Shown here: positions 89-33,722 of the stretch, piece by piece
Position numbering within the stretch: the stretch's first letter is position 1
Layout of the letters: every line of letters starts with the position of its first letter
Assembly (NCBI GenBank): GCA_017467605.1
Contig: JAFUSQ010000022.1
Coordinates: 1 to 41,977 of the forward strand
Source: a bacterium
GTDB taxonomy: Bacteria > Cyanobacteriota > Vampirovibrionia > Gastranaerophilales > Gastranaerophilaceae
Reading direction: 5' to 3'
Length of the DNA stretch: 41,977 bases
Position numbers and translations under genes: made by a program
The notes under the pieces: model-generated
Told to the model about the DNA's origin: nothing
Databases searched by the model: none
What the model saw: only the letters and a program-made list of their open reading frames with translations

Positions 89-96
89 ATTTAGAA

Positions 97-2205: not shown

Positions 2206-2218
2206 TAAATTCTAAATA

Positions 2219-2253
2219 GAAAACAGGTCGATTTAATAAACCGACCTGTTTTC
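2219..2253. terminator. Bidirectional terminator between convergent genes
   Basis: A 12-bp perfect stem, GAAAACAGGTCG (2219-2230) and its complement at 2242-2253, with A and T tails on both sides. It can terminate the 1801 gene on the plus strand and the 2263 gene on the minus strand. Confidence 0.85.
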
Positions 2254-2262
2254 TTATGCTTT

Positions 2263-3207: not shown

Positions 3208-3212
3208 TTTAT

Positions 3213-3851: not shown

Positions 3852-3995
3852 TAAAATTTCCTTTGTGGATTTTATAAGTTTAATCAAAATAAAAATTGCT
3901 AAATTTAAATTTTTTGTAAAGAAATTTTATCTTGATTTTGTCTTTTTTTTATTGTATTTTAATTTTGTAGGAATTAAGTTGGGGTAAATTTTATA

Positions 3996-4232
3996 ATGCT
4001 TGTATCTTCTATTGGATATTTTAAGCCGGTTAGCACAGTTTATAGTGATAATGTTGTAAACAGTCAGCTATCTAATAATAAAAATATACTTTCGGAAGGA
4101 TTTGGGCATTTTAATCAAAGCAGTATTTCTAAAAATAAAACTTTTATGGATTCTTTTTTAGATATTTGTAAATCTATTTTTTCAAATGATAAATCGGATA
4201 ATAGTTCTAAATATTTATCATTAATTGGTTAG
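3996..4232 (+). CDS. Small hypothetical protein, 78 aa
   Basis: A 78-aa Ser/Asn-rich open frame starting MLVSSIGYFKPVSTVYSDN and ending KSDNSSKYLSLIG, with no membrane segment. Evidence is modest. Codon use matches the neighbourhood, but the nearest purine run (GGGG, 3981-3984) is 11 nt upstream, and the last 12 nt overlap the convergent MFS gene. It could be a true short gene or chance coding. No function is assignable. Confidence 0.4.
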   Translation: MLVSSIGYFKPVSTVYSDNVVNSQLSNNKNILSEGFGHFNQSSISKNKTFMDSFLDICKSIFSNDKSDNSSKYLSLIG

Positions 4233-5396
4233 GTTATTTTTTATATCAAGTTTTTTTACCATAACTGAGCAAATTGCCGGAATTGCCGATAAAATTACCA
4301 ATACAGGTACAATACTTGTTGCTTGTGCTATAAAACCTATAACAGACATTAAAATGGCTACTATTCCCCAAGAAAATCCGTTTATAAATCCACCGATAAT
4401 ACTTTTATATTGCGGTAAAACTTTTTGGGCCATACTCATTGTTATCGGAGTTGCAAACATTGTTACAAATCCCATTAATGCATATATTACAAATGATAAA
4501 ATAGGATAGGTTTTGTATGTTAACATAAACAGTATCATCATTGGAAATGTTAAAATCATTGAAATATAAAATACGTTTGTTGTGCCTATTTTCTTTTCAA
4601 ATTTCGGACTTAACAGTGAACTTATTCCCCCTAAAAATATAAATAAAAACAATGCGAAACCTATTTGAAATTGGCTATAACCTTCTGATTTCCATAAAAA
4701 TGGCAGTAAAATTGAGCAAGAAGTTTGTATTAATGATTTTAACATTGCAATTATATTTAAAATATTTAGTTGTCTGTTTGATAAAATATCTTTCAATGCC
4801 TGTTCAAAATTTATATGAATTTGCTTTGTATTTATCCCTGAAAATTTTGGAACCATTTTGAACATTAAAATAGCCCATATAATTCCTAATAGTGATAATA
4901 TAGGCATTTTATTCAGTCCGAAATATTGCGCAATTGTTGCAGATAAAAGCGGTCCGACTGAAAAACCTAAAGTCCCGCAAGCAATAAAAATTCCCATGTT
5001 TTTGATGGTATCTGATGTGGTGAATTTTGAGATTAATCCTAATGATTGCGGGTGAAATAAGCTTGATCCTAAACTCCCTAAAACTATACATAATATCATA
5101 AGCCATATATTATTTGCAGCAGGTGCACATGATATAAATATTGCAGTACATAATAACCCCCAAAAAATTAATGCGCGTTTTTGTATGCTATCGGCAAAAA
5201 ATCCAAAAAAAGGCTGCATTAATGATGAAAAAACATGTGAGCAACTTAAAATAATTGTTGCGACAGGCATAGATATTTTAACCTGTTCCGCTATAAATGG
5301 CATAATAGGATTTAAAAATCCGGTGTAAATGTCATTTATAAAATGTCCGCCGCAAAACCAAATTTGAGGTTTACGCTCGTCGTTGTTATATATCAT
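4221..5396 (-). CDS. MFS transporter, fosmidomycin-resistance-like family
   Basis: A 391-aa inner-membrane major facilitator with about 12 hydrophobic helices. The N-terminal part (GGHFINDIYTGFLNPIMPFI, then PFFGFFADSIQKR as the loop 2-3 motif) resembles the Fsr group of small-molecule efflux proteins. HPQSLGLISKF in helix 4 fits the same group. The substrate is unknown. ATG 5396 sits exactly 6 nt after a TAAAAT -10 box with no Shine-Dalgarno sequence, so the mRNA is probably leaderless. It diverges from gatD across 71 bp and overlaps the small 3996-4232 frame at its 3' end. Confidence 0.85.
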   Translation of the reverse strand: MIYNNDERKPQIWFCGGHFINDIYTGFLNPIMPFIAEQVKISMPVATIILSCSHVFSSLMQPFFGFFADSIQKRALIFWGLLCTAIFISCAPAANNIWLMILCIVLGSLGSSLFHPQSLGLISKFTTSDTIKNMGIFIACGTLGFSVGPLLSATIAQYFGLNKMPILSLLGIIWAILMFKMVPKFSGINTKQIHINFEQALKDILSNRQLNILNIIAMLKSLIQTSCSILLPFLWKSEGYSQFQIGFALFLFIFLGGISSLLSPKFEKKIGTTNVFYISMILTFPMMILFMLTYKTYPILSFVIYALMGFVTMFATPITMSMAQKVLPQYKSIIGGFINGFSWGIVAILMSVIGFIAQATSIVPVLVILSAIPAICSVMVKKLDIKNNLTN

Positions 5397-5467
5397 AAGA
5401 TAATTTTACAATAACTTAGCCAAAAATCAATTAAACAAGTATGATTTACTCGTGTTATAATATGCTT
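5397..5467. promoter_or_regulatory. Back-to-back promoters for two leaderless genes
   Basis: Minus strand: TTGATT (5430-5425), 16-bp spacer, TAAAAT (5408-5403), then 6 nt to ATG 5396. Plus strand: TATAAT (5456-5461), then 6 nt to ATG 5468; the matching -35 is weak (TTAAAC near 5431). The two promoters share about 50 bp. Confidence 0.6.
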
Positions 5468-6202
5468 ATGAGAGATAAAGAATTAACGATTTCTATTGCG
5501 CATTTGTATCCAAAATTACTTAATTTGTATGGAGATTTGGGTAATATTATTACTTTAAAAAAAAGATGTGAATGGAGAGGAATAAATGTTGAATTTGAAG
5601 AAATTAATACAGGTGATTCCATAAAAAATCACGATTTATATTTTATTGGCGGCGGACAAGACAAACAGCAGGAAGAAGTAGCGCAAGAACTTTATTCTCA
5701 TAAATCAGAATTGATTGATCAAAGGGATTGTGGTGCGGTATTTTTGGGAATTTGCGGAGGATATCAGCTTTTTGGACATTATTATCAACCGCATGATAAA
5801 GATAAATTACTTGGAATTTCTTTGATGGACGCTTATACTGTTGCAGGGAAAAATCGTTTTATAGGTAACGTCACGATAAAAACGGATTTTCTGACTCCAA
5901 ATACTCTTGTTGGGTTTGAAAATCATAGCGGTTTGACATATTTGCAAGGTGATACCAAGCCTATCGGCAAGACTGTTATTGGTAATGGTAATAACGGTAA
6001 GGACGGATTTGAAGGCGGGCGTTATAAAAATGTTTTCGGAACTTATCTTCATGGTTCGCTTTTGCCTAAAAATCCGCATTTTGCAGATTATTTAATTTCT
6101 CTTGCACTCGAAAAAAGATACGGTGAAAAAATAGAACTTTCAAAACTTGATGATAAATTTGAGTTTGAAGCTCATAATTCAGTTATCGGAAAAGAATATT
6201 AG
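5468..6202 (+). CDS. gatD: Type 1 glutamine amidotransferase, GatD-like (lipid II amidation)
   Basis: A protein of about 244 aa of the CobB/CobQ-like glutamine amidotransferase class. The nucleophile elbow FLGICGGYQLFG carries the catalytic Cys, FGTYLHGSLLPKNP carries the His, and DLYFIGGGQDKQQEE is the oxyanion-side loop. In GatD this domain supplies ammonia to MurT, which amidates the D-Glu of lipid II. MurT is normally encoded next door and is absent here. ATG 5468 is chosen because a TATAAT box lies 6 nt upstream; an in-frame ATG at 5441 lies upstream of that box. The stop overlaps the convergent prepilin stop. Cobyric-acid-type amidotransferase is the alternative, less likely at this length. 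Confidence 0.8.
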   Translation: MRDKELTISIAHLYPKLLNLYGDLGNIITLKKRCEWRGINVEFEEINTGDSIKNHDLYFIGGGQDKQQEEVAQELYSHKSELIDQRDCGAVFLGICGGYQLFGHYYQPHDKDKLLGISLMDAYTVAGKNRFIGNVTIKTDFLTPNTLVGFENHSGLTYLQGDTKPIGKTVIGNGNNGKDGFEGGRYKNVFGTYLHGSLLPKNPHFADYLISLALEKRYGEKIELSKLDDKFEFEAHNSVIGKEY

Positions 6203-6984
6203 TGTAAATAATTCATGTTGTGGTTTGTTAGAATGTAATAAGAGCAGCCCCAGCCGGATTTATCTTTTTTACAACTGTCTTTTTCGGCATCTGAGATTCC
6301 GACAGAGCCATTTTGATATAATAAATTAAATAGGTCTTTCCCAACTATATTGGGAGGATTTGAGCCGTTTATATCTATAAAAAAATCTATGTCAAATTTT
6401 TCAGTGTTTTTTTTACCGCTTCTGAACCAAATTGAAGAACCGTTAAGTAATTTTATTTTATAATAATTTGAACTTACGGAATAATTTATATGATTATTAC
6501 CATTCAGTTTTTTATATATAATATTTGGAGTACAAATACTTTTTTCATCTGTTAGTCCGCAATCATATGCAAGTTTAATATAAGGTTTAATTTTTTCTGC
6601 AATAATTTCAGCATCTTGAGATGACCCATCATAATTCATGCCCCAACCTGAAACATCACCATCTTCCTGTTCGGCATGCCTAACTGCTTGTGCAAGAATT
6701 GATTGAACTTCTCTAAGTTGGCTGACAACCCTTTTTTCAAACGAATTTTGTATAAGATTTGGTAATGTTAATGCCGCAACAACGCCGATTATGCCGATTG
6801 TTATAAGGACTTCTGTGAGGGTAAACCCCGCGGAGCGCAGTAATCGCGGTAATTCAGTTGTTTTTGTCATTCCGAACTTGTTGCGGAATCTACTCATATT
6901 GCTTTTAAAGGTTAATTCCCTTTCGGCATTTTGCGTTACTGCTTCAATCAAAGCAGAATAAGTTAACATTTCTCTAAATTTCAC
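6199..6984 (-). CDS. Prepilin-like protein with repeat-bearing leader (pair 2)
   Basis: A 261-aa prepilin-like protein. A 53-residue leader precedes the cleavage site RSAG|FTLTEVL and the hydrophobic helix. Within the leader, SRFRNKFGMTK is the translation of a dispersed palindromic element (about 6868-6896), and PRLLRSAG recurs in the prepilin at 32484. The C-terminal signature FFIDINGSNPPNIVGKDLF lies near residues 201-219, followed by a Cys pair. The start is GTG 6984, supported by AGGAGA 6 nt upstream; an ATG five codons in is the alternative. It diverges from an XRE gene at 7146. The mature protein should not contain the repeat-derived segment if it is processed normally. Confidence 0.87.
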   Translation of the reverse strand: MKFREMLTYSALIEAVTQNAERELTFKSNMSRFRNKFGMTKTTELPRLLRSAGFTLTEVLITIGIIGVVAALTLPNLIQNSFEKRVVSQLREVQSILAQAVRHAEQEDGDVSGWGMNYDGSSQDAEIIAEKIKPYIKLAYDCGLTDEKSICTPNIIYKKLNGNNHINYSVSSNYYKIKLLNGSSIWFRSGKKNTEKFDIDFFIDINGSNPPNIVGKDLFNLLYQNGSVGISDAEKDSCKKDKSGWGCSYYILTNHNMNYLH

Positions 6985-7145
6985 AATTATTCTCCTATAA
7001 CTAACAAATAGTATTAGTTTCTTCGTAAAATCCTACTAATTAAAAATATAATATACCTAATTGTAATATTTTGTCAACATTAATAATACAAATTAGTAGT
7101 TTTATAGTATACCCCAATGTTTTAAATTGATGTTAGGAGAAATTT
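6985..7145. promoter_or_regulatory. Divergent control region, prepilin/XRE pair 2
   Basis: Minus strand: TTGACA (7077-7072), then a TATATT/TATTAT -10 cluster (7055-7048), is a strong prepilin promoter. A perfect 9-bp dyad brackets it: CTACTAATT at 7033-7041 and AATTAGTAG at 7091-7099. A related ATTAGT core occurs near 7013. The XRE start has its own site, AGGAGA (7135-7140). Cooperative repressor binding across the promoter is the natural reading, untested. Confidence 0.6.
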
Positions 7146-7466
7146 ATGGTTGAATCCGGAAAAATATTTGGGGAAAGATTAAAAGAAATCAGAAAAAACA
7201 ATAGAATGTCGCAATCTAAGTTAGCTGAATTGCTTAATGTTGATGAAAAATATATTTCTCGTCTTGAAACAGGTTCTTCTACTCCCTCATTTTCAATGCT
7301 TGTAAAAATTTCGCAAGTATTGAATATTAGTCTTGAAACTTTGTTTAAATTTAAACATTTCCGCTCAAGAGATGAATTAGTGAAAATTATTATTTCAAAA
7401 ATTCAAAATGCAACAGAAGAAAAAGTTCAACTTATATATAAAATAGTTGAGGATATTTTGGAATAA
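7146..7466 (+). CDS. XRE-family transcriptional regulator (pair 2)
   Basis: A 106-aa regulator. Its N-terminal helix-turn-helix reads FGERLKEIRKNNRMSQSKLA, VDEKYISRLETGSSTPS and LNISLETLFKF. A helical tail of about 40 residues (RDELVKIIISKIQNATEEKV) may serve dimerisation. ATG 7146 has AGGAGA 5 nt upstream. It diverges from the prepilin at 6199-6984 with 161 bp between starts and is closed by its own terminator at 7469-7490, so it is monocistronic. The tail pattern is close to that of the regulator at 41491, suggesting duplication of whole modules. Its targets are inferred to be the dyads in the shared gap. Confidence 0.88.
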   Translation: MVESGKIFGERLKEIRKNNRMSQSKLAELLNVDEKYISRLETGSSTPSFSMLVKISQVLNISLETLFKFKHFRSRDELVKIIISKIQNATEEKVQLIYKIVEDILE

Positions 7467-7468
7467 AA

Positions 7469-7490
7469 AAGACCGCTTTTGCGGTCTTTA
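7469..7490 (+). terminator. Intrinsic terminator of XRE gene
   Basis: Perfect 9-bp stem AAAGACCGC/GCGGTCTTT with a TTTT loop, 3 nt after the stop codon. The 3' tract is short but the stem is strong. Confidence 0.85.
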
Positions 7491-7512
7491 TAAATCTATC
7501 CTAATTCCTTTT

Positions 7513-7583
7513 GGGGTAAATGTTGCTGCTAATTACTTAAAATCTCCACAAATTATTGCAGATGGGGGTAAATATAATTACCC
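7513..7583. repeat. G-tract element, two partial copies
   Basis: GGGGTAAATGTTGCTGC (7513 on) and GGGGGTAAATATAATTACCC (7564-7583) are members of the dispersed G-tract family described at 16131 and 20047. Neither is upstream of a promoter here; they lie between the XRE terminator and the small gene at 7623. Confidence 0.6.
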
Positions 7584-7622
7584 GATTTATTCCTTATCCT
7601 TATTCCTTTTCCAACGACTGAT

Positions 7623-7799
7623 TTAAGCTATGAAGTTTGTTCCAAATCTGTTTGCTCCATGGAAAAATGATTGCTTCATTATTTGTGATAAAGTCTTTTT
7701 AACAACCTTTTTATCACCAAGTTCAACTTCTTTTATAGCTTTTGATGTATCTTTATATGCGCTTGTAACTGCATCAGAAAATAATAGCATTGTAGCCAT
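7623..7799 (-). CDS. Small hypothetical protein, 58 aa
   Basis: A 58-aa protein too short for routine gene calling. It begins MATMLLFSDAVTSAYKDTSK and ends in FFHGANRFGTNFIA. The middle is a charged, probably helical segment (KAIKEVELGDKKVVKKTL). Coding is supported by AGAGGA about 9 nt before ATG 7799 and by normal codon use. The opposite-strand frame over the same bases has no ribosome-binding site. It diverges from the 451-aa gene at 8025, and the two N-termini are of similar small, Ala/Ser-rich type. Function unknown. Confidence 0.68.
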   Translation of the reverse strand: MATMLLFSDAVTSAYKDTSKAIKEVELGDKKVVKKTLSQIMKQSFFHGANRFGTNFIA

Positions 7800-8024
7800 A
7801 GTTTTAATCCTCTCTCAAATTTAAATCTTAATTAAACTAATTTTCTTTTTCTTTATTTGTCTCTTACATATATATAAAAACTTCCGTTAAAAATTTATTG
7901 ACTTTTTATATTCAATTTATATAAAACTTGTTACATAACTTTACAAATTAAGAAAATTATTAAAGAAAATAATCAGTTTGGCCGAAAAGAATAGTAATAA
8001 GTTATGAAAGGATTGTTCTAAGAA

Positions 8025-13860: not shown

Positions 13861-14598
13861 TTATTCGGAAATTTTCCAGCCGTTTTTCATAACTTTAGTT
13901 AAACAACCTTGAGTCCAATCACCAATATGCCCGTCAGACATTGCGCGAGTATTGCATTTTTCTTCATCATTGCTCCAGTCAACAACGGTGCCGTCAGGTT
14001 TAATCTTTGCGCCAAATGTATCAATCCCTATCATATTGGGTTCATCAGGCCCGTTAACGTCAATTACAATGAATGCGACACCGTTTGTTATGTCAGCCGG
14101 ACTTTCAGCATGATATGTCATACATATTGTTGCGCCGTTAATTGTTAATATACAGTGTTGTCCGTATAAATTCCCTGCATCTTCACCGTTTTTTGTTATG
14201 TATGAGCTTCCGACACATTTTGGATTTTTAGTTGCTGCAACATCAGCAGTAGCCTGACAATCGGCAGCTGATTTAAAATAATTTCTTAAAAAGTAGCAAG
14301 CACCTTTTTCAAAGCTATCTGTATCGGTTTTACATTTGTTTGGAACACCTGCTGTTGTTTGGTAAAAATTAGTTGAATGCTCATCATTCATAATTGCCTG
14401 AGCAGCATCAGTAATTTGAGAATATACTTTTTTCAGGCTTGAACCATATATTTTAAATCTGTAATTTTTAACCATTGCAGGAACGGTTAGCATGGCAACT
14501 ACCCCGACAATACCAAGTGTTACAAGTACTTCTGCAAGGGTAAAAGCAGTTTTTTTGATATTTTTATTATCCTGTTTATCCAATTTATTATTCCTCAT
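13861..14598 (-). CDS. Prepilin-like protein, third gene of prepilin operon
   Basis: A 245-aa prepilin-like protein. The 18-residue leader ends KKTA|FTLAEVLVTLG and is followed by a hydrophobic helix. The signature IVIDVNGPDEPNMIGIDTF lies in the C-terminal third. Six or more Cys suggest disulfides outside the cytoplasm. I start it at ATG 14598, which overlaps the stop of the preceding gene as TAATG, a translational-coupling arrangement; an in-frame ATG 18 nt upstream would lie inside that gene. It is the distal gene of a three-prepilin operon with 14598-15389 and 15403-16074. It shares a long alignable body with its immediate neighbour (AIMNDEHS/TxNFYxTT), so the two are recent duplicates. 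Confidence 0.87.
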   Translation of the reverse strand: MRNNKLDKQDNKNIKKTAFTLAEVLVTLGIVGVVAMLTVPAMVKNYRFKIYGSSLKKVYSQITDAAQAIMNDEHSTNFYQTTAGVPNKCKTDTDSFEKGACYFLRNYFKSAADCQATADVAATKNPKCVGSSYITKNGEDAGNLYGQHCILTINGATICMTYHAESPADITNGVAFIVIDVNGPDEPNMIGIDTFGAKIKPDGTVVDWSNDEEKCNTRAMSDGHIGDWTQGCLTKVMKNGWKISE

Positions 14599-15389
14599 TA
14601 ATATTCCATCTTCCACCCTGCTTCTACAACACTTGTTAAACAGCCTTTTGCAGCACTATTTATACCACTGGAACCATCGTCTTGCCCGCATTCTGCCGCA
14701 GATGCTCCTGCGTTGTTATCAGCACAACCGCTTGCATAATCAGATATGGAGCCGTTTTTATGTATATCCATTGAAAATATGTCACGTCCTGCAACATTTG
14801 GCTCTGACATTCCATTAACATCAACTGTTAAAGACATACAATTATTTGCAGTGTTATAAACTCCGCAAATAGCAGCCCCATTTGGTGTTTGAATACTATA
14901 AGGACAGTATGCACCACTAATAGAATTTCCGCTCATTGTTTGGTATTTGTTGTCTGCAGTTGTAAAACAACCTTTGAAGTCTGCTCTCGCACAATCTTTC
15001 TTGATTGATTTAAAATATTTTGTAAAAAAGTAACCTACTCCTGTTTGGCAATCTCCTGTAGCTTTATTCACGCATGAAGTTAATCCTACTGCAGTAGTTT
15101 CATAGAAGTTATCTGTGTGTTCATCATTCATAATAGCCTGTGTTGCATCAGCAATCAGAGCATAAGTTTTTTGAAGTTGTGCAGTGTAAATTCTGTTTTG
15201 ATAGTTTTTCATAACCCCGGGAATTGTTAAAACTGCAACAACACCAACAATACCAAGCGTAATCAAAACTTCTGACAGGGTGAACCCTTGTCTGTCACCC
15301 TGAACTTGATTCAGGGTCTGCTTTTTAATAGATTCTGAAACAAGTTCAGAATGACAATTATATTGATTTTTTTTATCAAATTTTTCCAT
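14598..15389 (-). CDS. Prepilin-like protein with in-frame palindromic element, second of operon
   Basis: A 263-aa prepilin-like protein. Its 35-residue leader is MEKFDKKNQYN, then CHSELVSESIKK and QTLNQVQGDR, which are the translation of a paired palindromic element (15290-15356), then QG|FTLSEVLITLG. Without the element the leader would be about 13 residues, like its neighbours. The body resembles the 13861 protein (AIMNDEHTDNFYETT; signature LTVDVNGMSEPNVAGRDIF). GGAAGGA lies 6 nt before ATG 15389, 13 bp after the stop of the first operon gene. The element keeps the frame and the cleavage site, so the mature product should be unaffected. Confidence 0.87.
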   Translation of the reverse strand: MEKFDKKNQYNCHSELVSESIKKQTLNQVQGDRQGFTLSEVLITLGIVGVVAVLTIPGVMKNYQNRIYTAQLQKTYALIADATQAIMNDEHTDNFYETTAVGLTSCVNKATGDCQTGVGYFFTKYFKSIKKDCARADFKGCFTTADNKYQTMSGNSISGAYCPYSIQTPNGAAICGVYNTANNCMSLTVDVNGMSEPNVAGRDIFSMDIHKNGSISDYASGCADNNAGASAAECGQDDGSSGINSAAKGCLTSVVEAGWKMEY

Positions 15390-15402
15390 ATATATCCTTC
15401 CG

Positions 15403-16074
15403 TTAATATTTCATTTCCCAGTTATTTTCTAAAAGTTGAGCAAAACAGCCTTTGCCTTCAAAATTATATTTTGTTTTGGTCTTGTTTTCATCTTCTGTAT
15501 CTATATATTCTTTCCCGCATTCTGTTACCGGATCATTATCGAAAATTTTGTTAGTATATTTGTCAATATATATACTAAAAAGGTCTCGTCCTCCAATATT
15601 TGGGCCTTCGGTAGAATTAATATCAACTCTAAATCGACAATATCTGCTATTGGTATCACTATTTGCCCAACAAAAGAAAGAAACTGCTTCTCCGCTTGCT
15701 AATTTAGCATAACCGTGCCTATCATTAGCTAATGAGAAACTTCCAGTACTGCTAGAATTTATAATTCCATATTTGGAAGCGAAAGGTCTTGAATTATCTC
15801 CGCTGGCTTTTTTAAAGTATTTGTCTATAAATGCTTGTGAGGCTCCACCGCTATTATATGCTGCAGCATACGGAGTTTGATAAAAATATGAAACATTATT
15901 GTCGCTGCAAGCCTGATTTATTGCACTATCAAGCATTTCTACGACTTTTTTCAATTTTGTTACATAAACTCTTTTATGATAATCTTTTATGACACCAGGC
16001 AAAACCAATGCAGAAATAGTACCAATAATTGCCATTGTTATCAATAATTCACCAATAGTAAGGGCTTTTCTCAT
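15403..16074 (-). CDS. Prepilin-like protein, first gene of operon
   Basis: A 223-aa prepilin-like protein with a very short leader, MRKA|LTIGELLITMA, and Leu instead of Phe at +1. The helix continues ALVLPGVIKDY. The signature FRVDINSTEGPNIGGRDLF sits in the last third, and the end (CFAQLLENNWEMKY) matches the other operon members. GAGAG lies 5 nt before ATG 16074. A strong promoter with an adjacent G-tract element is upstream (16106-16180). No XRE partner is present, so this operon is under a different control from the divergent pairs. Confidence 0.87.
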   Translation of the reverse strand: MRKALTIGELLITMAIIGTISALVLPGVIKDYHKRVYVTKLKKVVEMLDSAINQACSDNNVSYFYQTPYAAAYNSGGASQAFIDKYFKKASGDNSRPFASKYGIINSSSTGSFSLANDRHGYAKLASGEAVSFFCWANSDTNSRYCRFRVDINSTEGPNIGGRDLFSIYIDKYTNKIFDNDPVTECGKEYIDTEDENKTKTKYNFEGKGCFAQLLENNWEMKY

Positions 16075-16468: not shown

Positions 16469-17932
16469 CTACTTAACAATACTACTAATTTCAGGACTTT
16501 CGTTTACGTAATTTGTCAATTGTTTCAGTGCGGGTTTGTATGAATTAATTGTGCTTGAACCGCCTAGGCAGCCGCCCGGACATGCCATTACTTCAATTAA
16601 ATTACCAAGTTCGCATTTACCGTTTTTGGCAAATTTTTTCAAATCTCTTATAGCAGCTTTATCAAGTCCGTTTATAACGTGAGCTTGAGCTTTTTGTCCA
16701 TCTTCAAGCAATGCATTAACGGCTTGAGCTACTCCGCCTGTTACTGCAAAATTGCGGGCTTGTGCTGATGATTCTTGTGCAAATTCTTCACCTTCGCATT
16801 GAGCTACTTGAATATTAAGAGCAACGAACCAAGCCCCTAATTCTTCAAAGTTAAGTACATAATCAATATTTGGGTTCTGCATTGCTTCACGTCTTTTTGC
16901 AACACATGGGCTGAAAAATACAGTTATTGCATCAGGATTTTGTTTTTTTACGATTTCTGCCGTATAGTATGCAGGAGTGTGTGTTGAAGAACGGAAAGGT
17001 TTAATTTCCGGAATATGTTTTTCAACAAGTTCGTTATATGCTGCACAACAAGACGTTGTCATAAATTGCTGTCCTTCTTCCATTCTTTCTTTAAATTCAT
17101 CAGATTCATTTTTTGTTGTAATATCTGCACCAACTGCGACTTCAACAACATCTGCAAATCCAATATCTAAAATTGATTGTTTTAATTGCTGCGGAGTGCA
17201 GGGTAATTGACCCATTATTGCAGGTGCAAGCATTGCAATAACTTTTTTACCTTGTTTCATTTGTTTAATAATGTCGATAACGTGGCTTTTTTTGTGAACC
17301 GCGCCAAACGGGCATGCTGTTACACATTTTCCGCAAGATATACATTTTTCATGATTAATTCTTGTAATTCCGTCCTCGTCTTTTGCTATTGCTCCGACAG
17401 GACAAGCATTTTCACAAGGTACTATAATTTTTGTGATTGCTTGGAACGGACAAACTTGTACACACATTCCGCAGCTTTTACATTTTGAATGGTCAATATG
17501 AGATTTTCCGTTTTCAACTTTAATTGCGCCAAATCTGCAAACTGATTCACAAGGTCTTGCAACACAACCTTGACATAAATCTGTTACGTGAATTCTTGCC
17601 GGAACACATTCATTACATGCCGTTTGTAAAAGTGTAAGCGGGTGTTCTTCAGGTTGTTCTCTTTTTGTTGCTTTATCTGCTAAATCAGACAAAAGCTGAC
17701 TGTCTTGAACTTCTTCAATATCAAAACCAAGACCTGCAATTACTCTGTCTCTTAAAATTGCACGTTCCTTATGGATACAACATCTGAAAGGCACTTCGCT
17801 TCCTTTCGGACGCATATCATAAGGTATCATTCTTACATCTTCTTCGTAATTATTTCCAAGGTAAGCCCTGATAAGTCTTACCAAAATTTCTCTTTTTAAA
17901 TGTGATGTTTGTTTGGGGGTATTTATACTCAT
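16469..17932 (-). CDS. [FeFe] hydrogenase, group B-like, ferredoxin-type
   Basis: A 487-aa soluble monomeric-type [FeFe] hydrogenase, expected to exchange electrons with ferredoxin and make or use H2 in fermentation. Three or four Cys-rich segments for [4Fe-4S] clusters lie at residues 115-215 (CKSCGMCVQVCP, CISCGKCVTACP). The H-cluster motifs are TSCCAAY (294-300), SPCVAKRREA (341-350) and MACPGGCLGG (449-458). All four H-cluster ligands (Cys296, 343, 451, 455) and the proton-relay Cys295 are kept. The CPGGC form and TSCCA instead of TSCCP suit group B rather than group A. AAAAGG lies 7 nt before ATG 17932. The maturases HydE, HydF and HydG are not in the window. Confidence 0.88.
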   Translation of the reverse strand: MSINTPKQTSHLKREILVRLIRAYLGNNYEEDVRMIPYDMRPKGSEVPFRCCIHKERAILRDRVIAGLGFDIEEVQDSQLLSDLADKATKREQPEEHPLTLLQTACNECVPARIHVTDLCQGCVARPCESVCRFGAIKVENGKSHIDHSKCKSCGMCVQVCPFQAITKIIVPCENACPVGAIAKDEDGITRINHEKCISCGKCVTACPFGAVHKKSHVIDIIKQMKQGKKVIAMLAPAIMGQLPCTPQQLKQSILDIGFADVVEVAVGADITTKNESDEFKERMEEGQQFMTTSCCAAYNELVEKHIPEIKPFRSSTHTPAYYTAEIVKKQNPDAITVFFSPCVAKRREAMQNPNIDYVLNFEELGAWFVALNIQVAQCEGEEFAQESSAQARNFAVTGGVAQAVNALLEDGQKAQAHVINGLDKAAIRDLKKFAKNGKCELGNLIEVMACPGGCLGGSSTINSYKPALKQLTNYVNESPEISSIVK

Positions 17933-18056: not shown

Positions 18057-18302
18057 TGTCATTGCGAGGGAGGAACGACCGAAGCAATCCCGTCTGAATT
18101 GCATCAATTTTTCTGGATTGCTTCGTCGGACTTCCGTCCTCCTCGCAATGACGTGATTCGTCATTCTTCGGAGCAAAAATTACGTCATTCAGAGCGCAGC
18201 GTGGAATCTCCGTAATTTTTGCTCCCCTGAATCTCATAATTTTTCCCCTACGTGGAAGCTCTCCTTCGGCACTTCGTGCCACTTCCCCCATTGGGGCAGA
18301 TT
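18057..18302. repeat. A/A' and C + D palindromic elements, right of hydrogenase
   Basis: From left: two opposed A elements forming a long palindrome (18057-18153); a C hairpin with perfect 15-bp arms (18170-18184, 18211-18225); and a D element in reverse (about 18238-18302). The C + D unit is the inverted counterpart of 16270-16407, but its C loop has the same absolute orientation as on the left. With the promoter below, this accounts for all of 17933-18475; the frame at 18025-18291 is translated repeat. Confidence 0.8.
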
Positions 18303-19277: not shown

Positions 19278-19991
19278 TTAGTGTCCATGGTATAAGTCTT
19301 TGAAATAATCGGTACTGGTGAGGGCTTTTTCACCACATGTCCAACCGTTCATCAATGTTGAGGAGTCGTCTTTTTTACAGTATTTTTCTCTATTTGTCTC
19401 ACTTCCCAAATAAGTTCCCGGAGCTCCGACAGGAAGCAAACCTTGGTTAGTTAACTCAAAAGAAAACAAATCCCAACCCAATTTATTAGGTAATTTATTT
19501 GCTCCGTTTATATCTACAGATATGAATAATTGAGTTTTATATATACTATCATCGTTTGTTATAATAACCAACATTCCATTATTTGTAACAAATGAGGTTG
19601 ATTTTACAACAGATCCAATAATTGATGCTGCGTGGTTGCTATTACTATTATATTCTGTATAAGTATTGCTTTTTTTAGGGCAGGCGCTTTGTTTATTTTC
19701 AGTAGTATCACTAAGTACTCCGCAATCTTCAATTATTTTAAAATAATTTTTTGCTATTGGATAAAAAGAGTTAAGTTTACCTGCATATTTGGCAGGCATT
19801 ATTGAAACTCTGTCAGCTTCCATTGAATCTATTGCTTGAGATAACATTGCATATGCGGTGTTGAACTGAGATTGAGCAATTGATGCTTTATGCCCGCTTA
19901 TCAATTGTGGTAAAATCAATGTTGCAACTACTCCGATTACACCAAGAGCAATCAAAACTTCTCCTAAAGTAAAGGCTAAAAATTTTTTCAT
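19278..19991 (-). CDS. Prepilin-like protein, unpaired
   Basis: A 237-aa prepilin-like protein with a 6-residue leader, MKKFLA|FTLGEVLIALG, a hydrophobic helix and the signature ISVDINGANKLPNKLGWDLF near residues 165-185. Cysteines CGVLSDTTENKQSACPK and a C-terminal YCKKDDSSTLMNGWTCGE suggest disulfides. GAGGA lies 14 nt before ATG 19991. It is transcribed alone from the TTGAGT/TATAAT promoter at 20022-20050, next to two tandem G-tract elements. No XRE gene is adjacent, which places it with the 15403-16074 operon rather than with the divergent pairs. Confidence 0.87.
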   Translation of the reverse strand: MKKFLAFTLGEVLIALGVIGVVATLILPQLISGHKASIAQSQFNTAYAMLSQAIDSMEADRVSIMPAKYAGKLNSFYPIAKNYFKIIEDCGVLSDTTENKQSACPKKSNTYTEYNSNSNHAASIIGSVVKSTSFVTNNGMLVIITNDDSIYKTQLFISVDINGANKLPNKLGWDLFSFELTNQGLLPVGAPGTYLGSETNREKYCKKDDSSTLMNGWTCGEKALTSTDYFKDLYHGH

Positions 19992-21622: not shown

Positions 21623-21756
21623 TTACCAAGGATAGTCTTTTTTAATTTTGAAATTGTCTGCTTTTTTTCATAAGTTGTTATCAATCCGGGAATTGTTAAT
21701 GCACTGACAACCCCGATTATACCGATAGTTATCAGGGTCTCAGCCGGTGTAAAGCT
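21619..21756 (-). pseudogene. Prepilin fossil, N-terminal piece only
   Basis: A 45-codon open frame, S|FTPAETLITIG, then IIGVVSALTIPGLITTYE and KKQTISKLKKTILGN, stop. It is plainly a prepilin N-terminal segment, but there is no start codon or ribosome-binding site in frame and the pilin body is missing. Its upstream side is the F element in the same orientation as in the 32484 and 41635 prepilin leaders. It overlaps the tsaC stop by 4 nt. I take it as a dead prepilin truncated when tsaC or a neighbour was brought in. Confidence 0.82.
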
Positions 21757-21811
21757 ATTTTTTGAAGTGAATAGGTGGATAAGTTGATAAGTTCTTTACG
21801 GTTATTAATCC
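21757..21811 (-). repeat. F element (leader-type TTATCCAC repeat)
   Basis: On the minus strand it reads TAATAACCGTAAAGAACTTA and then TCAACTTATCCACC, ending CACTTCAAAAAA. The same string precedes the prepilin region at 32771-32830 and at 41911-41974, and a decayed copy lies at 23925-24025 and a reversed one at 13391-13426. Confidence 0.7.
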
Positions 21812-21863: not shown

Positions 21864-22106
21864 ATGACAAAACACAACATAAAAGTTTGTATGGGAAGTT
21901 CTTGTTTTGCACGCGGAAACGCTGAAAATTTGGAATTTATAGAAAATTATATAAAAGAGCATAATTTAGATGCGGAAATTGAACTTGTTGGAGCTTTATG
22001 CTCAGAAGAATGCAGTTCCGGTCCAAATATTTTCATAAATGATGTTCTCTATAATGAAATGAACAAAGAAAAGTTAAAAGAAGCTTTGGATAAAGTTGCA
22101 GTATAA
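21864..22106 (+). CDS. Thioredoxin-like [2Fe-2S] ferredoxin (NuoE/HndA-like)
   Basis: An 80-aa small iron-sulfur protein, the first gene of a hydrogenase-sensor operon. Four cysteines match the NuoE-type [2Fe-2S] site: VCMGSSCFARGN (Cys9, Cys14) and GALCSEECSSGP (Cys46, Cys50). It would pass electrons in the cytoplasm, here probably to or from the HydS-like protein encoded 72 bp downstream. GAGGAAG lies 3 nt before ATG 21864. An AT-rich 9-bp hairpin (22124-22132/22138-22146) separates it from the next gene and may partly uncouple their expression. A paralogue ends the operon at 25222. Confidence 0.9.
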   Translation: MTKHNIKVCMGSSCFARGNAENLEFIENYIKEHNLDAEIELVGALCSEECSSGPNIFINDVLYNEMNKEKLKEALDKVAV

Positions 22107-22178
22107 TTTATAAAATGGGGTAAAATAATAAAATATATTTATTATTTTAAAAAAATGTAAAATAGGAGTTAAGTAATA

Positions 22179-23900
22179 ATGACAAGTCAAACACAGCACC
22201 CTGTATACACTTTGACAAACGAATGCAAAGACTGTTACAAATGCGTAAGACATTGTCCTGTAAAGGCAATTAAAATAGAAAATGACCATGCCTCTGTTAT
22301 TCCTGATAAATGTATATCTTGCGGTAATTGCGTAAAAGTTTGTCCGACAAATGCAAAATGTGTCAGAGGCGATTTGGAGAAAGTCAAAAATCTTCTTATT
22401 GCACAGAAAGATGTATATGTATCATTAGCACCTTCTTGGAGAGCTGTATTTGAAAATTCTGCAAAAAAAATGATTGCTATTTTAAAAAGATTAGGCTTCA
22501 AAGAAGTTTCTGAAACAGCTTTGGGAGCTCAGGAAGTATCAATTCATGATGCAGAAGTTTTAAATAACATGGAAAAGGGATTATTAATTTCAAGTGCGTG
22601 TCCTGTAATTGTTGATTATATAAGAACTTACAAGCCTGAATTCACTAAATACATTACTCCTATAGGTTCTCCTGCAAAAACTCATGCAAAAATGCTCAAA
22701 GATAAATACGGAAGCAATATTTCAGTAGTATTTATAGGGCCTTGTATCGGCAAAAAAAATGAAGCTGACGAAAATGACGGGCTTATTGATGTTTCAATTA
22801 CTTTTGAAGAATTAAAAATCTGGGTTGCAGACGAAATCGGAGATATTTCTTCAATTAAAAAAGAAAACGATTTTGAATTTGTTCCGCAAAGTGCATACGA
22901 AGGAACTTTGTACCCAATAAACGGCGGAATGAATGAAACAATTAAAAAAATTGGAATTAAAAATAATGTTCAACTTATGGAAATTTGTACAATTCCGGCG
23001 TTTGAAAAAGCTTTGGAAAATCTCAATCCGGAAAAGCTTGAAGTTCCTGTATTTGTTGAGGCACTGGCTTGTGAATCCGGTTGCATAACAGGACCTTGCA
23101 TCGCCTCAAATAAGGCGAGTATAAGTTCAATATCTGATGTTATGTTTAAAGTTAAATCAAGAGATAATATTCCGACAAAAGCAGAGACCGTTGTTGAATG
23201 TACATATTCGCCAAAAGAAATTCAAACAAATAAATATTCCATAGAAGAAATTCAACAAACTTTGAAAAAAATCGGTAAACATACGGAAGAAGATGAATTA
23301 AACTGCGGAGGCTGCGGATATTCATCATGTAGAGAATTAGCAGTTGCATTATTAGACGGTGTTGCAGAAACTTCTATGTGTGTTTCTTATATGAGAAAAA
23401 TTGCCATGAGAAAAGCCGCAGCAATGCTTCGTTGTATGCCTGCCGCAATTGTCATGGTTGATAATAATATGAATATTTTGGAAGCAAATGACAGTTTTAT
23501 GAAAATGTTTACGGGCGATATGTATGAGATTTTCAAAGCTCGTCCTGACGGATTGACGGGTGCTGCAATCGACAGAATAGTAGAATTTTCAGATATATTC
23601 AGAACAATTTTAAAAACAGGTAAAGATCTTCATAAAGAGCATTATAGCGTCAAAGACAGATTGTTTGACATAAATGCATTCACAATTGAACCTAACGAAA
23701 TTGTCGGCGCAATTATAACAGATGTTACTCAAACAGAAACAAACAGAGAAAAAATTTCCGAAAAAGCTAAAGAAGTTATTTCAAAAAATATTTCTATTGT
23801 TCAGGAAATTGCCTGTTTGTTAGGAGAACACATGGTAGAAACAGAAACTTTACTTAACTCTATCGCAAATGATTATGATGATAAGGAGGGAAACAAGTGA
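22179..23900 (+). CDS. Sensory [FeFe] hydrogenase with PAS domain (HydS-like, group C)
   Basis: A 573-aa H2-sensor-type protein. Order: two [4Fe-4S] ferredoxin motifs (residues 16-61; CKDCYKCVRHCP and CISCGNCVKVCP); H-cluster domain with SSACP (138-142), GPCIGKKNE (187-195) and ACESGCITGPC (297-307); a four-Cys Fe-S domain, NCGGCGYSSC (375-384) plus Cys401; a PAS domain (about 418-515, AAIVMVDNNMNILEANDSF); a C-terminal helix. The H-cluster ligands are kept, but the proton-relay Cys is Ala (SSACP for TSCCP), as in low-activity sensors. There is no kinase domain; the next gene is a PP2C phosphatase, which suits phosphatase-linked group C. AGGAG lies 9 nt before ATG 22179. Confidence 0.9.
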   Translation: MTSQTQHPVYTLTNECKDCYKCVRHCPVKAIKIENDHASVIPDKCISCGNCVKVCPTNAKCVRGDLEKVKNLLIAQKDVYVSLAPSWRAVFENSAKKMIAILKRLGFKEVSETALGAQEVSIHDAEVLNNMEKGLLISSACPVIVDYIRTYKPEFTKYITPIGSPAKTHAKMLKDKYGSNISVVFIGPCIGKKNEADENDGLIDVSITFEELKIWVADEIGDISSIKKENDFEFVPQSAYEGTLYPINGGMNETIKKIGIKNNVQLMEICTIPAFEKALENLNPEKLEVPVFVEALACESGCITGPCIASNKASISSISDVMFKVKSRDNIPTKAETVVECTYSPKEIQTNKYSIEEIQQTLKKIGKHTEEDELNCGGCGYSSCRELAVALLDGVAETSMCVSYMRKIAMRKAAAMLRCMPAAIVMVDNNMNILEANDSFMKMFTGDMYEIFKARPDGLTGAAIDRIVEFSDIFRTILKTGKDLHKEHYSVKDRLFDINAFTIEPNEIVGAIITDVTQTETNREKISEKAKEVISKNISIVQEIACLLGEHMVETETLLNSIANDYDDKEGNK

Positions 23901-24031
23901 AGAAATGATTAAGTGAAAAAATAAATAAGTTCATTAACAATTATCTTTTATACCTTGGAGTTTGACCGGAATAAATAAACGATACGAACTTATTCACCTA
24001 TTTACTTATTAACTTATTCACCTTAAAAATT
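23901..24031 (+). repeat. Decayed F-element spacer inside the sensor operon
   Basis: A 131-bp gap in an otherwise tight operon contains ACGAACTTATTCACC and further TTATTCACC-like repeats (about 23980-24025), a decayed F element. No ribosome-binding site precedes ATG 24032, so the element may have replaced it. Confidence 0.55.
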
Positions 24032-25195
24032 ATGTTCATAGATATAGATTGTCATCAGGTAAAAAAATATAATCAAAATGCTTTTGGAGATTATTTTGTT
24101 TCCAAAAGATATCCTGATGAAGGCAAATTAATTGCAGTATTATCTGACGGATTAGGTTCCGGGATTAAAGCAAATATATTATCCTGTATGACTGCAACAA
24201 TGCTTTTAAAATTTGTCGAAAAAGAAGAAATTCCGATTCGCCATGCTGCAGAAATTGTCATGAATTCTCTACCTGTTTGTCAGGTCAGAAAAATAAGCTA
24301 TTCAACATTTTCTGTTATTGATGTTAATGATGAAGGAGTTGCAAGGATTATTGAAGAAGGGAATCCCGAATTTCTATGGATAAAAAACGGTGAAGTTATG
24401 ACCCCGACATATGACACAATTCAGTCAAAAACTTTCAAAAACAGATGTATGAAAAGTTACAAAATTCACCTTGAACTTGGTGACAGATTGATATTTTGTT
24501 CAGATGGAGTAACTCAATGCGGACTTGGCAACGGGAAATTAAAACTAGGGTTACGCAGAGAGGGTTTAATTGAGCTTGTTTTAAACAAGTTAAAAGAAGA
24601 ACCTGATATTTCAAGTTCTGATTTATCAGAATATATAATTCGCCAAACTGAAAATATTGAAACAAACAGATTACCAAAAGATGATATTTCGGCTTGTGTT
24701 TTATATTTCAGAGAACCGAGAACATCATTGATATTTACAGGACCGCCATTTAATCAAAAAAATGATGCCGAATATGCACAACTATTCAAAGATTTTAAAG
24801 GTAAAAAAGCAATTTGCGGCGGAACTACGGCAAATCTTATTTCGCGAGAATTAAATCGTCCTATAACCATGGATAATCAAATTAGTATTGGAAAACTTCC
24901 AAGTTGTTCATATATGGAAGGGGTTGACCTTGTAACAGAAGGTATTCTGACCCTCACAGAAACACTTGAACGATTAGAAGCCGGTAATTGGGATATTGAC
25001 AATGCTGCCGGAAAGCTGATAGAATTTCTATTAGATAGTGACTGCATCAATTTTATGGTCGGTGCAAAGCTCAATCAAGCTCACTATAATCCTGCATTAC
25101 CGGTTGAAATTGAAATCAGAAAAAATATTATAAGAAAAATGGCAGCAGTATTACAGGATAAATATTTCAAAAAAGTTAATATCCAATTTATGTAG
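24032..25195 (+). CDS. SpoIIE-type PP2C protein phosphatase
   Basis: A 387-aa Ser/Thr phosphatase of the SpoIIE/PP2C class. The metal-binding Asp residues are in FGDYFVS (Asp20), VLSDGLGSG (38-44), CSDGVTQCG (near residue 155) and DDISACVLYF (near 220). After the catalytic domain a C-terminal region of about 150 residues (KKAICGGTTANLISRELN) is of a type found in phosphatases beside sensory hydrogenases. It probably responds to the HydS-like protein encoded immediately upstream and dephosphorylates an unknown anti-sigma-type or kinase partner (inference). ATG 24032 has no ribosome-binding site; a repeat has entered the leader. The 3' end is 26 bp from the next operon gene. Confidence 0.87.
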   Translation: MFIDIDCHQVKKYNQNAFGDYFVSKRYPDEGKLIAVLSDGLGSGIKANILSCMTATMLLKFVEKEEIPIRHAAEIVMNSLPVCQVRKISYSTFSVIDVNDEGVARIIEEGNPEFLWIKNGEVMTPTYDTIQSKTFKNRCMKSYKIHLELGDRLIFCSDGVTQCGLGNGKLKLGLRREGLIELVLNKLKEEPDISSSDLSEYIIRQTENIETNRLPKDDISACVLYFREPRTSLIFTGPPFNQKNDAEYAQLFKDFKGKKAICGGTTANLISRELNRPITMDNQISIGKLPSCSYMEGVDLVTEGILTLTETLERLEAGNWDIDNAAGKLIEFLLDSDCINFMVGAKLNQAHYNPALPVEIEIRKNIIRKMAAVLQDKYFKKVNIQFM

Positions 25196-25221
25196 TTATA
25201 TAGTCATAGAGGAAGGTGAAA

Positions 25222-25479
25222 ATGGAAAAAATTAGTGTTAAAGTTTGTTTAGGGACAACTTGTTTTGTAATGGGTTCTGCAAATCTTCAAGAATTAATAG
25301 AAATAGTTCCGAGAAAATATGGAGATAAAGTTGATGTATCAGGAGTTCCTTGCCTTGGATTATGTGCTACGGATTGGGAATTTTCAAAAGCTCCATATGT
25401 AAAAGTCGATAATGATGTTATTAAAGAAGCAACTGTAGATAAAGTTATTGCTGCAATTGATGCAAAACTAAAAAAATAG
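25222..25479 (+). CDS. Thioredoxin-like [2Fe-2S] protein, last gene of sensor operon
   Basis: An 85-aa paralogue of the 21864 product. Cys9 and Cys14 (VCLGTTCFVMGS) and Cys44 and Cys48 (GVPCLGLCATD) form the NuoE-type [2Fe-2S] site. It is likely an electron carrier for the sensor hydrogenase. ATG 25222 is preferred to GTG 25216: AGGAAGG ends 5 nt before the ATG. A second such gene in one operon suggests separate input and output carriers, but nothing in the sequence says which is which. Confidence 0.9.
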   Translation: MEKISVKVCLGTTCFVMGSANLQELIEIVPRKYGDKVDVSGVPCLGLCATDWEFSKAPYVKVDNDVIKEATVDKVIAAIDAKLKK

Positions 25480-27822: not shown

Positions 27823-27920
27823 TATCGTAATACCTTTAAGTTAATACCTTGACATTAGTATCAACATGAAATATCATAGTTAACAAAGTTAGTATTAATA
27901 TTGTGAACTTAGGAGAAAAA
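27823..27920. promoter_or_regulatory. Divergent control region, prepilin/XRE pair 3
   Basis: Plus strand: TTGACA (27849-27854), 17-bp spacer, TATCAT (27872-27877), a strong prepilin promoter. TTAATAC (27841-27847) and GTATCAA (27858-27864) form a near-perfect dyad around the -35, with a third half-site, GTATTAA, at 27892-27898. TAATACCTT is directly repeated at 27828-27836 and 27842-27850. Repression by the adjacent XRE protein would block the -35. Confidence 0.6.
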
Positions 27921-28871
27921 ATGAATTTATTTAAATGTAAAATAAGTAATAGGACCGCTGAGACCAATAGGGGTAAATATAATGGCGATGAGTTAAATTA
28001 CAAAACAAATTCCCTGCTGAATGACGAGTCACGTCATTGCGAGGAGGACGTAAGTCCGATGAAGCAATCCAGTCATTTCTGTCATTCTGAAATTGTTTCA
28101 GAATCTATTAAAAAGCGGACCCTGAATCAAGTTCAGGGTGACAGGGGTAAATGTAGTTCCCTCTCCCCTACCCCCTCTCCTGCAGGGCGAAGGGAAAAGA
28201 AGGCTGCGTTCACCCTTGCCGAAACTCTTATAACAATCGGCATAATCGGAGTTGTCGCGGCAATGACTATTCCAAACTTAATCCAAGAAAACCAAAAACG
28301 CGCAACTGTCACAAAATTACAGAAAGGAATTTCTGTAATAAATCAGGCTTATAAATTATCATTTGATGAGCAAGGAGAACCTGAGAGTGCATTTGATATA
28401 GGTGCTGAAGCATATTTCAAACAATACTGGCAGCCGTATATAAAGATGCTTCAATATTGTGACACATACAAAAATTGCGGATATAGAGAATCAATGCCTT
28501 TTACTTGTTCAAATGATAGTAAAACTACTTTGAGTGCAATTTGGACAACTACCAGAACAACATTTTATACGCATGATGGTTTGCTATATATTATTATGAA
28601 TGCAACCGGTAATAGTGGAGATGTAGCGGATAATAGAATTCTTTTAGATATAAATGGTGGTGAGGGGCCTAATAAATATGGCAGAGATTTATTTACTCTG
28701 GAACGAATAGAAGATGGGGGAGGAGTTCGCCCGTATGGATATAATCTATCAGATGAAGTAATAAATAGAAATTGTTCTAAATTAGGCAAAAACGAACATT
28801 GTGCCGGTGAATTTTGTGCCGAGAAAATCCGCCGCGCAGGTTGGAAAATTGAAAAAGATTATCCTTGGTAA
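27921..28871 (+). CDS. Prepilin-like protein with long repeat-built leader (pair 3)
   Basis: A 316-aa prepilin-like protein. About 96 residues precede the site EKKAA|FTLAETLITIG. The leader is a mosaic: a short unique start, GKYNGDELNYK (also in the 41635 leader), an A element read as RHCEEDVSPMKQS (28033-28072), then a paired B element read as CHSEIVSESIKKRTLNQVQG (28079-28141). The body has GPNKYGRDLF in the usual signature (near residue 245) and a Cys-rich end. ATG 27921 is chosen over GTG 27903 because AGGAG lies 7 nt before it. Cleavage at KKAA|F would remove the repeats. It is divergent from the 72-aa XRE gene. Confidence 0.86.
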   Translation: MNLFKCKISNRTAETNRGKYNGDELNYKTNSLLNDESRHCEEDVSPMKQSSHFCHSEIVSESIKKRTLNQVQGDRGKCSSLSPTPSPAGRREKKAAFTLAETLITIGIIGVVAAMTIPNLIQENQKRATVTKLQKGISVINQAYKLSFDEQGEPESAFDIGAEAYFKQYWQPYIKMLQYCDTYKNCGYRESMPFTCSNDSKTTLSAIWTTTRTTFYTHDGLLYIIMNATGNSGDVADNRILLDINGGEGPNKYGRDLFTLERIEDGGGVRPYGYNLSDEVINRNCSKLGKNEHCAGEFCAEKIRRAGWKIEKDYPW

Positions 28872-32483: not shown

Positions 32484-33722
32484 ATGAAGTTAAAATTATT
32501 AAAAAGAAAGTTACAATTTTTTGTTTTACTGAGCCTCCCCAACCGAGGAGGGAAGAATTTTAACACCTGTTTAAGAGTGTTAGAAATTCAAGGTGGGGTC
32601 TTTACCCGTAAGGGCAAGCTTAATAGCTTCTTCGGATTTTACCTTCACAATGACGAATTACGTCATTGCGAGGAGGACGTAAGTCCGACGAAGCAATCCA
32701 GAAATATATGTCACCCTGAACTTGTTTCGGAATCCATTTCAAAAAAGATGCTGAAACAAGTTCAGCATGACATAATAATCCGTAAAGAACTTATTCACTT
32801 AATCACTTATTCACCTATTGACTTCAAAAAAGCTGCCTTCACTCCTCACCGGAACGCCCGACGAGCAGAAGGTACTCTGCCGAGCAAAAACAATCCGGTG
32901 AATTGTTTTTGCGAGAGGGAAGTGAGCGATGCCTGTTTAATGCGAGTCGGGCAAGAGAGTGGGTACTCTGCTGCTAACTTTGGCAAGACTCCACGACTAC
33001 TGCGCTCCGCGGGGGTTACGTTGGCAGAAGTCTTGATAACAATCGGCATAATCGGAGTAGTCGCGGCAATGACTATCCCAACACTTATTCAGAAAAATCA
33101 AAAACGAATTATTGAAGCCAATATGAAAGAAAATTATTCTATAATTCAGCAGGTTATTCGCCAGAACGAAGCAAATGATATCGATATAGTTTCTGAATTT
33201 AAAGATGGTGATATTCAATTTTTAAAAACTTGGTTTGAAACATATTTTGAGCCGTATATGAAATATAATCGTGTTTGTTATGATACAGAAGGGTGCTGGC
33301 AAAATAAGGGACCTACTAAAATTCTAACCGGTGGTACTGTTTATGCAAATCGTGATAATATCGGTATCGGTTCACAAATTATTACTGTTAAACTTAATAA
33401 CGGGTCTAACTTAGTTTTTAATATATGCGGTTCAAGCAGTATGCGTAATTATTGCGGTATGAGTACTACAGGTTCGGGTCTGTCTTTGTATATAGATGCT
33501 AACGGAGATTCTCCTCCAAATGTTATTGGAAAGGATATATACGTACTATGTTATTCTTCGGCTCATGGATTAATTCCTGCAGGATATAATATTGCAGATA
33601 GTGAAGTCAACAAAAATTGTTCCAAAAATGCCTCAGGAGACAATGCCGGTTTTTACTGCCTTATGCGCATAAAAAATCATGGCTGGCAAATCCTTGATGA
33701 AGTTTGGAGGATTAAAACTTAA
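32484..33722 (+). CDS. Prepilin-like protein with a 177-residue mosaic leader (pair 4)
   Basis: A 412-aa prepilin-like protein, the longest here. Its leader contains, in order, an A element read RHCEEDVSPTKQS (32661-32701), a B element read CHPELVSES with SKKMLKQVQHD (32709-32772), an F element read KELIHLITYSPIDFKK (32771-32830), then AAFT, which looks like a former cleavage site, and a further palindrome-rich insert (CAAAAACAAT/ATTGTTTTTG arms, 32886-32912). A new site follows, RLLRSAG|VTLAEVLITIG (177/178). The body has IDANGDSPPNVIGKDIY. AGAGGA lies 10 nt before ATG 32484. Either the long leader is tolerated or translation starts further in; no better start is visible. Confidence 0.82.
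   Translation: MKLKLLKRKLQFFVLLSLPNRGGKNFNTCLRVLEIQGGVFTRKGKLNSFFGFYLHNDELRHCEEDVSPTKQSRNICHPELVSESISKKMLKQVQHDIIIRKELIHLITYSPIDFKKAAFTPHRNARRAEGTLPSKNNPVNCFCEREVSDACLMRVGQESGYSAANFGKTPRLLRSAGVTLAEVLITIGIIGVVAAMTIPTLIQKNQKRIIEANMKENYSIIQQVIRQNEANDIDIVSEFKDGDIQFLKTWFETYFEPYMKYNRVCYDTEGCWQNKGPTKILTGGTVYANRDNIGIGSQIITVKLNNGSNLVFNICGSSSMRNYCGMSTTGSGLSLYIDANGDSPPNVIGKDIYVLCYSSAHGLIPAGYNIADSEVNKNCSKNASGDNAGFYCLMRIKNHGWQILDEVWRIKT

Follow-up and report, generated by a model that had tools for sequence, protein, structure and literature searches.

Why a gene for a PAS-containing [FeFe] hydrogenase should be followed by one for a phosphatase, and what such a pair would measure and act on, is the question raised by a short operon in a bacterium of the order Gastranaerophilales. 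The window analyzed is a stretch of 41,977 nucleotides (contig 67 of a draft genome of 2.19 Mb), and its nearest named relatives are Candidatus Gastranaerophilales bins (L094, L100, L114), with identities of 71-75% for the hydrogenase, here HydS, and 78-80% for the phosphatase; these protein identities point to a presumed gut member of that order (Melainabacteria). The arrangement described in an earlier note on this DNA, four ORFs at 21864-25479 in the order [2Fe-2S] protein, PAS-containing [FeFe] hydrogenase, SpoIIE phosphatase and [2Fe-2S] protein, was borne out by ORF positions and Pfam matches. Features are given below in window coordinates.

21864..22106, plus strand: 2Fe1, an 80-aa thioredoxin-like [2Fe-2S] protein (CX4C...CX3C; PF01257, E 1.9e-11)
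22179..23900, plus strand: HydS, a 573-aa sensory-type PAS-containing [FeFe] hydrogenase (Fer4, Fe_hyd_lg_C (E 8e-45), PF04060 FeS and PAS)
23754..23897, plus strand: putative C-terminal signalling helix of HydS with QEIACLLGEHMVET, an element kept in phosphatase-linked HydS
24032..25195, plus strand: SpoIIE-family PP2C phosphatase, 387 aa (SpoIIE match, E 3e-12)
24707..25192, plus strand: C-terminal alpha/beta domain of the phosphatase, ~162 aa (GPP..GGTT..DLVTEG..VG..N), with no Pfam match
25216..25479, plus strand: 2Fe2, an 87-aa thioredoxin-like [2Fe-2S] protein (PF01257, E 5.1e-8)
16469..17932, minus strand: HydB, a catalytic group B [FeFe] hydrogenase of 487 aa (TIGR04105, 520 bits; cut-off 450)

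The hydS and phosphatase genes are separated by 131 bases, and the genome encodes three [FeFe] proteins in all: HydS, the group B enzyme at 16469-17932 and a group A-type protein on contig 18. A Rex operator upstream of the operon was considered and rejected, as the best site (21693-21710) carries 2 mismatches and matches in the window numbered 18 against 16 expected by chance; promoter and terminator predictions were close to those obtained with shuffled sequences and were also discarded. Many prepilin-like proteins are encoded elsewhere in the window (13861-16074, 19278-19991, 27903-28871 and 32484-33722), with a motif like FTLAETLITIGIIGVVAA, and a prepilin-like gene fragment seems to lie antisense at about 21630-21770. 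Repeat-like DNA (GTCATTGCGAGGG...) occupies 18058-18230 and is read through in several ORFs as SRHCEEDVSPTKQS.

Whether HydS is a sensor or an enzyme was addressed through its domains, its active-site residues and its phylogeny. The protein comprises two [4Fe-4S] ferredoxin-type motifs, the H-cluster domain (residues 77-306), a PF04060 FeS cluster, a PAS region and the C-terminal helix. The PF04060 match exceeds its Pfam cut-off and covers residues 374-402 with the spacing Cx2Cx4Cx16C, which is that given for groups C and D (PMC8163306). PAS matches fall below the curated cut-off (about 21 bits vs 22-27), and the region aligns with that of homologous HydS whose PAS exceeds it. The claim that the H-cluster ligands are kept while SSACP replaces TSCCP was confirmed: C141, C189, C298 and C302 are invariant across 52 homologues, SSACP is present, and the proton-relay position is occupied by Ala, as it is in 14 of 14 close homologues (the whole window clade), whereas all 39 group A/B sequences have Cys there. 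Since 13 of 37 other HydS retain the relay Cys, SSACP alone is an insufficient argument for a sensor, and loss of the Cys is typical of HydS but not defining. The position corresponding to M353 is Gly in the window clade, and that corresponding to M497, kept in 39/39 catalytic group A/B sequences, is Leu in 13 of 14 members.

Stronger evidence for a sensor is given by the M497 position together with a tree of H-cluster domains, which was built from 96 sequences with the named T. maritima and HydDB reference sequences left out. Phosphatase-linked HydS group there with histidine kinase (HK)- and chemoreceptor (MCP)-fused sensors (SH-aLRT 99), apart from group A (SH-aLRT 100) and group B (98), and the window clade sits together with Riflebacteria and Treponema on a branch of its own. 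The earlier note had named this phylogeny as the check on its own assignment, and HydS fell in the sensory clade, outside catalytic groups A and B; against the catalytic group B model TIGR04105 it scores 202 bits, with a cut-off of 450. Fusions of HydS-like proteins to histidine kinases, to a kinase-receiver-Hpt hybrid and to a chemoreceptor domain also exist in this order (L024, L025, L032-L035).

Judged by the defining features that a sequence can test, HydS is a member of HydDB putative [FeFe] group C3, the phosphatase-linked class: its H-cluster domain lies in the sensory clade, a Ser/Thr phosphatase is co-encoded, and a PAS region (sub-threshold) accompanies the Cx2Cx4Cx16C cluster. As in the class description (PMC5037454), a sensory-clade [FeFe] domain adjoins a Ser/Thr phosphatase gene, and we found no class-defining difference. 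The earlier description of a HydS-like group C sensor whose output pathway is unknown thus stands as to the sensory clade and needs amending as to the architecture, which is an already named class. Membership of group D (M2e, TamHydS), which is defined by having no PAS domain, does not fit the PAS region of the window HydS. TmHydS (group C, PMC10055695; compared from the publication) likewise has Ala as its relay residue and Gly at M353, and both TmHydS and TamHydS (group D, PMC8163306) share the C-terminal Cx2Cx4Cx16C cluster; the M497 position is Leu in the window HydS but Ser in TmHydS, and TamHydS is without PAS.

The kind of gene set is likewise known: besides HydDB C3, there are genetic studies of it in Thermoanaerobacterium (PMC5707799) and measurements of its expression in R. 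albus (PMC6776011). The hfsABCD genes of Thermoanaerobacterium (PMC5707799, PMC11837493; compared by description only) similarly encode a PAS-containing [FeFe] hydrogenase, a serine phosphatase and a catalytic hydrogenase, whereas the window type adds a [2Fe-2S] gene after the phosphatase and its hydB is displaced. Deletion of hfsA or hfsB, but not of hfsC or hfsD, raises adhE expression and ethanol, and H2 sensing by HfsB was stated to be not verified (PMC5707799). The Ruminococcus HydS cluster (PMC6776011; R. bromii locus L085) also holds [2Fe-2S], HydS, SpoIIE and group B-type genes, and in R. albus the presence of an H2-consuming partner lowers its expression 111-fold (PMC6776011). Linkage to rex/adhE in related loci is a further shared trait; the difference is an additional APH/RIO-like kinase in clostridial clusters, which was undetected in the window genome. 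An H2 response was shown for no C3 protein in the literature examined, and H2 sensing by such proteins is putative throughout. We regard the operon as being, with good probability, a phosphatase-linked (group C3-type) putative H2/redox sensor operon of the hfs/HydS type, with a phosphatase as its output.

The HydS locus is not a product of chance, since orthologues of at least 58% identity occur in 31 of 36 genus genomes, and every locus examined keeps this gene order. Across 107 HydS genes, 98 are adjoined by a phosphatase gene (78 of these pairs touch or overlap), and most of those lacking an adjacent phosphatase lie at contig ends. In a contig scan across genomes that covered 80 loci, from Clostridia, Bacteroidales, Treponema, Riflebacteria, Chloroflexi and others, the operon core recurs. 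Among the contigs seen, one from Riflebacteria (L039) has a group B hydrogenase flanked by two distinct HydS-phosphatase pairs in tandem, and one filed under Methanocorpusculum (L108) bears a Ruminococcaceae-like HydS operon, probably through a binning error. When the 80 loci and the order relatives were clustered by neighborhood, rex was found at 22 loci, adhE at 22 and an APH/RIO-like kinase at 28, which accords with what has been published on hfs and on R. albus (PMC5707799, PMC11837493, PMC6776011). All three of these genes are linked to the operon in Clostridia. Both adhE and rex precede the sensor genes in three relatives (L016, L017, L018); in the window genome they are unlinked to the operon, with adhE on contig 61.

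The group B enzyme, earlier noted as lying 4 kb away, is indeed catalytic group B and a linked gene, and is not a mere neighbor. An uninterrupted series of [2Fe-2S], HydS, SpoIIE, [2Fe-2S] and HydB genes is present in eight relatives (L016, L019, L020, L026, L028-L031), and hydB is the fifth operon gene, on the same strand within about 5 kb, in 24 of 34 HydS-positive related genomes; sensor, phosphatase and catalytic hydrogenase are thus contiguous there, as in hfsABCD, and non-contiguous in the window, where hydB is displaced and inverted. It lies elsewhere in nine other HydS-positive genomes as well. Five of the 36 genus genomes have hydB with no HydS detected, so HydS is the dispensable part. 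Group B hydrogenases of this order, including the one in the window, carry TSCCA where clostridial ones carry TSCCP or SSCCP, with both Cys present.

This linkage of hydB would also suit a slow catalytic role, in which HydS would join the [2Fe-2S] proteins and the group B enzyme in a single metabolic complex that the phosphatase only tunes, and purified TmHydS does turn over H2, slowly (PMC10055695), while TamHydS retains activity (PMC8163306). We consider such a role improbable, given the placement in the sensory clade, the relay Ala together with M497L, the PAS region and output helix, the lack of a NuoF-like flavoprotein subunit in the operon, and the finding that hfsB deletion raised hydrogenase activity (PMC5707799).

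Returning to a sensor with a phosphatase output, the proposal of such an output is supported by fold, residues and conserved adjacency to HydS. Residues G19, D20, D39, G40, D158, D217 and D218 of the PP2C site are invariant in 64 of 64 homologues, and the AlphaFold2 model (pLDDT 88.9) matches SpoIIE/RsbU-type structures with Z of 20-25. The window phosphatase shares the catalytic fold and metal-site residues of SpoIIE and RsbU; it differs in an added conserved C-terminal domain and in its presumed control by a separate PAS-hydrogenase protein. That domain, the last 162 residues, is predicted with confidence as alpha/beta (pLDDT 88.6) and has the near-invariant motifs GPP, GGT, DLVTEG and VG..N. 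A scan of 146 genomes of the phylum detected it in 62, among them 57 of 62 genomes of this family, and only with the HydS-type phosphatase, in ORFs of 387-436 aa save for one 128-aa partial match. Pfam gave no match, a PDB sequence search nothing convincing and Foldseek none at E below 0.001. A second structural search placed the alpha/beta domain of Mo/W-bis-MGD oxidoreductases and complex I 75-kDa subunits on top (Z 7-9.8), with the next unrelated rows near Z 6.3, which hints at a likeness of the modelled domain at fold level; a likeness to methylglyoxal synthase was weaker (Z about 6).

On the HydS side, the helix consensus QEIAxLLGExxAET is present in the phosphatase-linked HydS inspected, sometimes in weaker form, and is absent from six of six kinase- or chemoreceptor-fused (HK/MCP) HydS. 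Because of this co-occurrence with the phosphatase, the helix is proposed as the phosphatase-facing element.

The SpoIIE/RsbU-type fold invites classical partner switching, in which the phosphatase would act on an RsbV-like STAS protein and so release a sigma factor held by an RsbW kinase. The search for anti-sigma or anti-anti-sigma partners suggested in the earlier note was largely negative. Apart from the operon phosphatase, the one SpoIIE protein of the window genome is a Cache-HAMP-SpoIIE-HATPase fusion encoded beside a small STAS gene on contig 74 (L142, positions 1-8000); this set, patchy in the genus, could serve such a scheme, but it is self-contained, with its own phosphatase. Of 21 HydS-positive genus genomes searched, 13 had neither a strong HATPase_c_2 match nor a small STAS ORF and eight had both; one genome that is 99% complete (G014) had no STAS at all, and the remaining STAS matches in the genus lay in ORFs of about 540 aa, a length that would suit SulP transporters. 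Apart from the contig 74 set, the window genome thus yielded no RsbV/RsbW pair of the kind that defines RsbU-type switching. A Hanks kinase was not detected in 20 of the 21 genomes, a search in which diverged kinases could be missed. With Hanks kinases, RsbW-type kinases and small STAS proteins undetected in most of these genomes, classical partner switching is disfavored and very improbable.

The APH/RIO-like kinase of clostridial clusters was also tried as the partner and rejected for this lineage, as it was not detected in the window genome or in 38 of 40 genomes searched, with matches in G004 and G010. It recurs upstream of HydS, with an intact HGDxxxxN motif, at 28 loci that include L074:6731-7474 and are clostridial with few exceptions, and it is a candidate for the opposing kinase in Clostridia.

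Whether H2 is the signal was considered in the light of genomes that lack the [FeFe] domain. Four genomes (G060, G122, G164, G172) encode the phosphatase with no Fe_hyd_lg_C domain in the genome. In two of these, G060 and G122 (L133:3412-10807; L136), the phosphatase gene comes after a HoxEFUYH-like [NiFe] operon and the gene of a short stand-alone PAS protein, which is without FeS and H-cluster domains and ends in the same LLGE helix as HydS. The phosphatases of G060, G122 and G164 are nested among those linked to HydS, which suggests, subject to the rooting of the tree, that the sensor-less versions arose by co-option. A literature search of limited coverage returned no report of a SpoIIE/PAS/hydrogenase link or of a phosphatase beside a hox operon. 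The signal may in some cases be something other than H2, since in two genomes the PAS-phosphatase part is without any H-cluster protein. These two genomes, like the conserved [2Fe-2S] partners adjoining HydS, accord with a redox (ferredoxin) sensor, whose clusters would report the ferredoxin/NAD pool via the [2Fe-2S] proteins and whose H-cluster would be an electron outlet or a vestige; the invariance of the four H-cluster ligands in every HydS examined, as expected of a used active site, speaks against this, and we hold it to be possible but the less likely reading. With similar reserve, we advance tentatively that PAS, helix and phosphatase with its C-terminal domain make up a portable redox-output module, driven by an [FeFe] sensor or sitting with a [NiFe] hydrogenase, and that in Gastranaerophilales its target would be chosen by the C-terminal domain and would owe its phosphate to a kinase other than those of the Hanks, RsbW and clostridial cluster types.

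For the putative H2/redox sensor operon that we favor, the sequences establish the architecture, the ligands, the place in the sensory clade, the intact phosphatase site, the conserved linkage of the genes and the joint occurrence of helix and phosphatase. From there we infer the following route from H2 as the signal to the target and the direction of its control. The sensor state would be relayed through the [4Fe-4S] clusters of HydS, including the PF04060 cluster, to the PAS region and C-terminal helix; the helix would dock on the SpoIIE/PP2C phosphatase encoded next to it and switch it; and the phosphatase would dephosphorylate a Ser/Thr target, altering expression or activity of fermentative outlets, of which the group B hydrogenase and AdhE are likeliest. 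Electron transfer between the sensor and the ferredoxin/hydrogenase pool would presumably fall to the small [2Fe-2S] proteins. Against this stand the failure to find a substrate or opposing kinase, the unlinked adhE and rex of the window genome, and the turnover of TmHydS.

How an [FeFe]-based protein measures H2 and what its phosphatase acts on is an unsolved problem, in a system that affects the ethanol/H2 branch in fermenters. Points of specialist interest are the missing partners, the undescribed C-terminal domain and the sensor-less versions. These results reduce the problem, in that the helix is probably what switches the phosphatase, the C-terminal domain was seen with that phosphatase only across the 146 genomes scanned, and some genomes have the output but lack the sensor domain. 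A gut lineage in which the usual partners were not detected offers a smaller field in which to search for the target.
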